Source: Caldithrix sp.
GTDB taxonomy: Bacteria; Calditrichota; Calditrichia; Calditrichales; Calditrichaceae
NCBI GenBank assembly: GCA_020720405.1
Contig: DYOS01000006.1
Location: 14,794 to 57,369 of the forward strand
Direction of reading: 5' to 3'
DNA: 42,576 bases
Below are positions 1-1,765 of the stretch, piece after piece. The notes below the pieces were generated by a model. The model made no database searches. It saw only the letters and a list, made by a program, of their open reading frames with translations, and was not told where the DNA came from. Each line of letters starts with the position of its first letter. The stretch's first letter is position 1. The position numbers and the translations under genes were made by a program.

Positions 1-118
1 TTTTTCACTCTACTAATGGGGTCGTAGGCGGTAACCGGTTCTTAAATGGATTTAGAAAAAAAATTGTAAAAAAATTAAAACAAAGATATAAAACAATAAT
101 AATTAACAACTTAAAATT
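1..118. other. A/T-rich intergenic edge, no gene seen
   Basis: This is the window edge downstream of the kinase-like gene on the minus strand. It is strongly A/T-rich after about base 45 and I see no ORF, RNA gene or convincing terminator hairpin in it. Confidence 0.5.
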
Positions 119-1765
119 TTAGTTCGAGCGAAGAGAGCGGTAATCGGCACCCATAACCAGTACGATCCGGGCTACAGCCCGTTCATTTTCCTGAAGCTGA
201 CCAGGGTTCAGACCAAGCCTTACGGCCAGTTCCTGTGCGGTGTTTTTCAGCCCCGGCTGATACTGCATAAACGATTTTTCAACATTCCAGACAATCCGGC
301 CGTTGACCCGGTAATTTTCGGTTTCAACTTTCTCAAATCCGATTTCTCCAAGTGACCCGGCCAGTTCTGCTGCAACTCCTTTGGTTCCACTGCCATTCAA
401 AATAAGAATTAGCGGCAGGTCGGTCTCCTGCCGGATCAGATCCGACATTTCCAGTAAAAAAGGTTCCTCCGGAAAATAAATCAGACCCTGCCGGCAAAGA
501 CCGGCGGCAGCGCTATTCTGTCCAAGGCTTAAATTCTGCCTGATCTCAAGCCGCAGACGCTCCTGAATTTCCTTCAACCGGGATAAAGCCCGGCGATTGA
601 TGGAATCTGTTTTTAGAACGGACAGGTAGAATTCTGCTGCATTCCGCCCGGAGGGCAAAACAAGTGCGCCCTGATCGAAGAGACGGTCAGCCCGCTCCAG
701 CAGAGCCTGGCTGACAGGTACCGTTCCGCCTGGCAGCTCAGTCTGCTCTTTCTGATTGTAGAGCGGCAAAATTTTTATCAACCTGGGAACTCCCTGCCAG
801 AGGATAAGAAGCAAAACTAAAATCAGACTGCTCTGACCGGCCAAACGCCAGGGAATTTTATAAAACCCCTCATTAAACGGCTTCTCTTCTTCAACCGGTG
901 CATTTACAACCGGCTCATCCGGCGGCACCATAATTACTTCGGACGGGATATTTTGTAGCGGCCGGATAACCGGCAGCCGTTTCCATTGCCGCTGTACATC
1001 TTCGAAGGTTGTAAATCGGGTGGCGGCATCCTTTTCCAGGGATTGTTCAATAATCGCTCTCAGAACAGGTGAAGCGAGAAGCAGGGGAGCCGGTGGCTCG
1101 GACAGAATCTGGTGATAAATCTCTCCCCGCCGGAAAGGCGGATGGCCAGCCAGAAGACTGTAAATAACTGCACCAAAGGAATAAATATCAGAGCGGACGG
1201 TAAGGCTTCTACCGGAAATCTGCTCCGGCGACATAAAGACAATCGAGGTGCGGGCTGTCTGTTCACGGCACAGATGCCAGGCCTGGCGCAAAGCTTCAGC
1301 CACACCGAAATCCTGCAGTACAACATTTTCATCAGGCAGCAAAATCATATTTTCCGGGCGCAGGTCGCGGTGCAGCAAATTCTGATCGTGGGCTGCAATC
1401 AGCGCTTCAATCGGCAGGCGCATCCAGCGGATGACCTCCTGCTCCTCAAGCCGGCTGCCGCTCCGGCCTTCCGCCAAGGCGGCCAGACTTATCCCTTCAG
1501 GAAAATCTGTTTCCAGAAAATGGCGGTTCTGAAATTCGTGAATCCGCTGCAGGGCGATAATTCCCGGATGGCGCAGATCGGTCAGGGTGTTTAATTCATC
1601 CAGCAGAAAATCTCTGGTCTGCAGATTTCGGCTTAAAAGTGGTGGAATAGCGATCAGCCGGCGGGCCTGACCGGTCTCCGGATTAAAAGCCTTATAAACA
1701 TTGGCAAACAGTGATGACTGAATCCGGCCGCTAATGCGGAACCCGGGAATTTGCATAAAACCCAT
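119..1765 (-). CDS. Membrane-anchored Ser/Thr kinase-like protein with LytR C-terminal domain
   Basis: About 548 residues. An N-terminal Hanks-type kinase fold (roughly 1-265) has the catalytic-loop HRDLRPEN near 132, DFG near 152, an SPE (APE-like) motif near 180 and the alpha-C Glu in DELNTL. The glycine loop is degenerate, and the beta-3 position that should read VAxK reads IAIPP, so the ATP-anchoring Lys appears to be Pro. A Pro/Glu-rich linker, one membrane segment (about 311-331) and a helical TPR-like stretch follow. The last ~95 residues (ILILNGSGTKGVAAEL onward) match the LytR_C family. The kinase domain should be cytoplasmic and LytR_C extracytoplasmic. ATG 1765 is chosen; an in-frame TTG at 1783 would overlap the upstream DUF1761 gene, and neither start has a strong RBS. 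It could be a pseudokinase sensor rather than an active kinase. Confidence 0.82.
   Translation of the reverse strand: MGFMQIPGFRISGRIQSSLFANVYKAFNPETGQARRLIAIPPLLSRNLQTRDFLLDELNTLTDLRHPGIIALQRIHEFQNRHFLETDFPEGISLAALAEGRSGSRLEEQEVIRWMRLPIEALIAAHDQNLLHRDLRPENMILLPDENVVLQDFGVAEALRQAWHLCREQTARTSIVFMSPEQISGRSLTVRSDIYSFGAVIYSLLAGHPPFRRGEIYHQILSEPPAPLLLASPVLRAIIEQSLEKDAATRFTTFEDVQRQWKRLPVIRPLQNIPSEVIMVPPDEPVVNAPVEEEKPFNEGFYKIPWRLAGQSSLILVLLLILWQGVPRLIKILPLYNQKEQTELPGGTVPVSQALLERADRLFDQGALVLPSGRNAAEFYLSVLKTDSINRRALSRLKEIQERLRLEIRQNLSLGQNSAAAGLCRQGLIYFPEEPFLLEMSDLIRQETDLPLILILNGSGTKGVAAELAGSLGEIGFEKVETENYRVNGRIVWNVEKSFMQYQPGLKNTAQELAVRLGLNPGQLQENERAVARIVLVMGADYRSLRSN

Follow-up and report, generated by a model that had tools for sequence, protein, structure and literature searches.

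The 42,576-nucleotide stretch of Caldithrix sp. DNA that was analysed (hereafter the window) encodes, close to its start, a member of a bacterial pseudokinase family which combines an unusual pattern of kinase motifs with a LytR_C domain, and which is confined to one taxonomic family among the genomes searched. A kinase fold, a membrane helix, TPR-like helices and the LytR_C domain follow one another in this order in the 548-amino acid protein. The protein is probably best explained as a conserved transmembrane pseudokinase, in which a non-phosphorylating cytoplasmic platform would be tied to a periplasmic LytR_C part with a sensing or anchoring role at the envelope. The features of the gene and its product are given below in window coordinates.

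119..1765, reverse strand: whole gene, from the ATG at 1765 to the TAA at 119-121, coding for the 548-amino acid pseudokinase-TM-TPR-like-LytR_C protein

968..1744, reverse strand: protein-kinase-fold domain, approximately residues 8-266 (Pfam Pkinase; model against PknB 2fum_B)

1703..1720, reverse strand: degenerate glycine loop Q16-A21, the three glycine columns of which read Q, S and A (alignment)

1661..1663, reverse strand: R35, in a column that is Lys or Arg in all nine orthologues and mostly Val in other kinases

1652..1654, reverse strand: I38, site of the missing β3 lysine (alignment and independent profile)

1595..1597, reverse strand: αC glutamate E57, in a column with Glu in five, Gln in three and Ala in one of the nine orthologues

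1364..1372, reverse strand: HRD motif, H132-R133-D134 (alignment)

1304..1312, reverse strand: DFG motif, D152-F153-G154 (alignment)

1223..1231, reverse strand: APE-like motif SPE, residues 179-181, with the Glu at E181 (alignment)

767..823, reverse strand: single predicted membrane helix, residues 315-333 (hydropathy scan; long helix in the model)

422..718, reverse strand: TPR-like helical stretch, residues 350-448 (profile and model matches; TPR_2 in one of the nine orthologues)

140..409, reverse strand: LytR_C domain, residues 453-542 (Pfam PF13399; fold match 6q10, weaker match 2m5y)

The open reading frame opens at a TTG at 1783, six codons before the ATG. The Pfam profile PF00069 (Pkinase) matches residues 20-261 (E = 1.6e-31; 110.1 bits against a cut-off of 31.7) and scores above its curated cut-off in all nine orthologues. 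A structural model built from the nine-row alignment (mean pLDDT 75.2, with the kinase domain, taken in ten-residue blocks, mostly at 79-94) is closest to active bacterial kinases, the best Foldseek match being PknB of S. aureus, and it superimposes on M. tuberculosis PknB (2fum_B) with a Z score of 29.5 and an rmsd of 1.9 over 248 residues, other structures being tied with the latter. The original prediction of a membrane crossing is supported by hydropathy, which places one helix in the protein. Lys and Arg residues are more numerous before this helix than after it in seven of the nine orthologues, with a tie in the remaining two, and hydropathy and charge bias together suggest that the kinase domain lies in the cytoplasm and the LytR_C part in the periplasm. 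The C-terminal LytR_C domain was likewise correctly anticipated: the profile scores 37.2 bits (E = 5.9e-9; cut-off 22.2) in the window protein and is matched in all nine members, while a second model, of the post-helix part (mean pLDDT 87.2), has the soluble domain of the Rv2700 (Cei) orthologue 6q10 as its best match (E = 1.3e-4) and sole hit below 0.001. The match of this model to VirR (2m5y) is weaker (0.04) and stands amid TPR domains, and the post-helix profile also matches designed TPR proteins. The LCP catalytic domain (PF03816) is not among the Pfam matches of the window protein, which falls below the cut-offs of both the NCBIfam PASTA kinase model NF033483 (118.4 bits, cut-off 450) and the Cei family model (18, cut-off 150). 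A literature search on architectures combining LytR_C with a protein kinase domain found no paper, and one on Calditrichota with kinase or LytR returned nothing relevant by title.

The nine orthologue kinase domains were aligned with 137 other bacterial kinase ORFs (loci L012-L132 minus L037 and L040) of at least 200 residues that match the nine-member profile at E 1e-12; ordinary kinases retrieved with generic kinase motifs served as controls. The β3 lysine column (38) contains K in 135 of the 137 other kinases and a gap in two, as opposed to I, L, L, I, L, L, L, F and L in the nine orthologues. An independent profile, for which only the 137 other kinases were used, sets its lysine over I38 in a register that is gap-free in this stretch, confirming that the kinase domain lacks this residue, as had been claimed. 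The VAxK site had been described as reading IAIPP. The lysine is missing as stated, but its position in the stretch RRL-I-AIPP is that of I38 and not of the prolines, which are found three to four residues further on and the first of which, P41, is invariant across the nine orthologues. The Ala of VAxK is present in 120 of the 137 other kinases and in two of the nine orthologues, the window protein having R36 at this site, two residues before the lost lysine. All three loop glycines (columns 16, 18 and 21) are replaced in the window protein, by Q16, S18 and A21, in agreement with the degenerate glycine loop noted earlier. Lys or Arg occurs at the former glycine-loop columns 17-18 in seven of the nine orthologues, the exceptions being the window protein and L006, which has Y and N in these columns and A in column 36. 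A VAxK lysine displaced by a few positions within the strand occurs in none of the nine orthologues. The original prediction had also raised a relocated lysine as in the WNK kinases, but the third-glycine/β2 position, which we take to be the WNK site and which is column 21 here, reads A, G, G, C, C, S, C, G and C, with Lys in none of the nine. The loss of the lysine in all nine orthologues, with no shifted replacement in the strand, upholds the pseudokinase reading over the WNK-like one, and because the loss is common to all members it characterises a small pseudokinase family rather than a mutation. The available text of PMC12599244 defines a pseudokinase by the loss of at least one of the β3 Lys, HRD Asp and DFG Asp, and by this definition the family qualifies through the β3 lysine.

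The HRD, DFG, αC Glu and APE-like motifs, all reported in the original prediction, are present in the window protein, which also keeps the catalytic-loop Asn and the αF Asp. Across the family, the DFG Asp, APE Glu and αF Asp are each found in nine of nine orthologues, the catalytic-loop Asn in eight and the HRD Asp in seven. In the other two, L006 (genome G006) and L011 (genome G002), the motif takes the forms HRN/HKN, and this replacement of Asp by Asn is a second step of decay. Non-consensus residues at the αC Glu (4/9), HRD Asp (2/9) and HRD-loop Asn (1/9) compare with two, one and one, respectively, of the 137 other kinases. With its N-lobe motifs lost and its catalytic motifs mostly kept, the family shows an ATP-gripping N-lobe that has decayed in all nine members and a catalytic loop that has decayed in part.

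The retained HRD Asp, DFG Asp, catalytic-loop Asn and αF Asp amount to more than a scaffold needs and count against a pure scaffold, and the kept catalytic loop, together with the basic glycine-loop residues of seven of the nine orthologues, is the result that speaks most strongly against a dead kinase. These Lys and Arg residues at columns 17-18 could bind phosphate, and the proteins may be atypical kinases that are active or bind ATP, with a glycine-loop Arg or Lys, or R36 in the window protein, replacing the β3 lysine. The substitute residue, however, differs across the family and L006 has neither, the WNK site is without Lys throughout, and the αC Glu and HRD Asp are themselves lost in four and two members. 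POMK offers a precedent for ATP binding without the β3 lysine through a glycine-loop Lys, as outlined in the available text of PMC12599244, but in POMK this Lys comes with a DLD motif, whereas DFG is found here. We regard an atypical kinase as rather unlikely, roughly a one-in-several prospect, and favour a pseudokinase whose phosphate transfer has most likely been lost along with the parts that hold ATP, namely the glycine loop, the β3 lysine and, in many members, the VAxK Ala and αC Glu.

Full-length orthologues are encoded in nine of the 15 genomes of the window's taxonomic family, the window genome included, and the eight others are 28-32% identical to the window protein. Among 40 genomes of the phylum, the pseudokinase family is found in those nine only; a profile of the post-helix part matches 36 of the 40 at 1e-10, yet the complete module is confined to the nine. 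Across 385 genomes of relatives, in each of which at most eight candidates were scored, so that a distant copy could escape, the full C-terminal module was not found beyond the same nine, and no genome outside the phylum is among the matches listed at 1e-18. No full-length orthologue was found in genome G013 (95% complete, 680 contigs), which belongs to the same genus (g6) as G005, although its three genus mates have one; this absence is either a real loss or an assembly gap.

LytR_C domains have mostly been described in actinobacterial and LCP proteins. The original prediction had connected the domain with LCP wall proteins, a link that does not hold in this phylum, as an LCP domain was matched in none of the 40 genomes by a search that was positive in seven of 14 control genomes. 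Given that LytR_C is present and no LCP domain was found in the phylum, LytR_C should be able to function there without an LCP partner encoded in the same genome. Aside from the fusion, a separate membrane LytR_C protein (open frame of 143-266 amino acids) is encoded in 35 of the 40 genomes. Its wide occurrence suggests that the LytR_C domain of the fusion may derive from duplication of this separate protein; a LytR_C tree of the nine family members and 17 other rows did not resolve the branching order. At four loci (L167:5859-9168 in G005, L168, L169 and L170), a LytR_C protein of ~210 amino acids is encoded directly before genes that are RsfS-like and ArgS-like by eye, RsfS being confirmed by Pfam in the one locus scanned. 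A small gene of about 155-173 codons precedes the separate LytR_C gene, and the G005 copy of its product is without a Pfam match. A second LytR_C architecture is found in the phylum family f5 (L164:1123-2055, L165:1101-2045 and L166:549-1442), where proteins of ~300 amino acids comprise a long coiled-coil-like N-terminal part, a membrane helix and LytR_C. A further frame, cut by a contig end (L163:644-2146), codes for a membrane helix, TPR-like repeats similar to those of the pseudokinase and a TonB C-terminal domain.

The family could also be pictured as lineage-specific, envelope-spanning kinases that, lacking the β3 lysine, still bind nucleotide, and perhaps phosphorylate, by means of shifting basic residues and that are gated by LytR_C, in bacteria where no LCP enzyme was found. 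This is a speculative proposal with a small chance of being correct.

Around 110 bp downstream of the pseudokinase gene, on the same strand (window 1-119; L133:7146-9902), a partly masked gene occupies the flagellin position and is followed by fliS, fliD and flaG, as identified with Pfam. Related ORFs occur in the same order up to fliS and fliD in G007 and G011, while other clades differ. Neighbours inside the window are DUF1761, EamA and one methyltransferase-like gene; a selB-type gene neighbours the pseudokinase in G007, G009 and G011 (one cluster, Pfam on the G011 copy only) and an NHL-repeat protein does so in the G005/G012/G014 clade (Pfam on the G005 copy only). A conserved operon or partner gene was rejected, since the neighbourhood changes between clades. 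FliD is encoded in eight of the 15 family genomes, and the pseudokinase is present in seven of the eight with FliD and two of the seven without (Fisher p = 0.04), as against eight of the ten with and one of the five without when FlhA is the marker (p = 0.09), both p-values being optimistic as the genomes are related. The weaker value with FlhA makes the flagellar link a lead only. A membrane regulator with a part in controlling how flagellin is expressed or exported in this lineage would be compatible with the downstream genes and the FliD co-occurrence, but the G005 gene is located far from fliD (3.2 Mb versus 1.7 Mb), and FliD is encoded in 22 of the 40 phylum genomes when the pseudokinase is found in nine; we consider such a role improbable. 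A connection between the HRD Asn of L006 and L011 and missing flagella was also rejected: FliD has no match there, but FlhA is present in G006.

A quick kinase tree of 89 rows (the nine family members and 80 of the 137 others) places the nine kinase domains on one side of a branch with an SH-aLRT support of 100; the stem is long (1.12 changes per column), and the window protein itself has a long branch (1.97). Comparison within genera shows the kinase domain to be better conserved than the rest of the protein, with 93% identity and a dN of 0.042 between L004 and L005, compared with 68% and 0.212 for LytR_C, and 80% identity between L007 and L009, compared with 62% for LytR_C. The kinase dN/dS is 0.018 and 0.043 in these two pairs, respectively, values which are rough as dS is near saturation; dS of the kinase domain is saturated in the two other pairs. 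Strong purifying selection, acting on a kinase domain that is the best conserved part of the protein, indicates that the domain is not a decaying relic. The same contrast between kinase and sensor conservation is usual in receptor kinases, so the conservation supports a function but no particular one. A non-functional fusion or an assembly artefact, for which the degenerate motifs and the long branch of the window protein might be cited, is refuted in substance by the same full-length, stop-free frame in nine separate genomes, and by a kinase dN/dS of ~0.02-0.04 in the two computable pairs (dS near saturation), leaving it hardly any probability.

In the conserved pseudokinase that we favour, the kinase fold would probably offer a cytoplasmic partner a docking or allosteric platform, and would be connected to the periplasmic LytR_C domain by the one membrane helix and the TPR-like stretch. 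The periplasmic TPR-like and LytR_C part may sense, or anchor at, an envelope component, in a manner comparable to the VirR scaffold and MviN. The wall- or polymer-sensing role suggested in the original prediction would fit this analogy.

PknB and StkP (Stk1) are the closest solved proteins to the kinase domain in both sequence and fold, sharing with the window family a kinase domain, a membrane helix and an envelope-facing part. They are active kinases, with a β3 lysine and PASTA repeats. Little work has been devoted to bacterial pseudokinases. The available text of PMC12599244 sets out seven annotated families, divided into two groups by the loss of either all three motifs or the ATP- and metal-binding motifs, and also mentions some CP1 members with one degraded motif only. 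The loss of the N-lobe ATP grip with HRD and DFG mostly kept does not fit cleanly into either group as described there. The MviN (MurJ) pseudokinase domain of Mycobacterium tuberculosis, of the ActPs3 family, is membrane-bound, structurally solved and involved in wall control, with bulky residues filling the ATP site (available text of PMC12599244), and the window family may resemble it as a membrane-bound pseudokinase tied to envelope control. ActPs3/MviN, however, has fully degraded catalytic motifs and activation-loop deletions, where HRD and DFG are kept in the window protein and mostly in its family, and MviN carries a flippase and a carbohydrate-binding domain where the window family has LytR_C. 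The GLW pseudokinases share with the window family the replacement of the β3 lysine within a hydrophobic run and a kinase domain followed by a membrane helix (PMC12599244, in the available text), but their HRD has become GLW, whereas HRD is found in seven of the nine members here, including the window protein. EssB/YukC of type VII secretion spans the membrane once and has a degraded kinase fold that serves as a scaffold, according to the same text, a layout resembling that of the window family, for which a scaffold role is proposed here; all three motifs are degraded in EssB/YukC and LytR_C is not mentioned for it in that text, whereas the window family mostly keeps HRD and DFG. On the envelope side, VirR (Rv0431) and Cei (Rv2700) each combine a single membrane helix with a LytR_C domain (available text of PMC7831098), and these LytR_C-only proteins act in mycobacterial envelope integrity, with VirR proposed as an envelope scaffold (available text of PMC11832169). 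Neither has a kinase domain, but both share the membrane helix and the LytR_C fold with the window protein.
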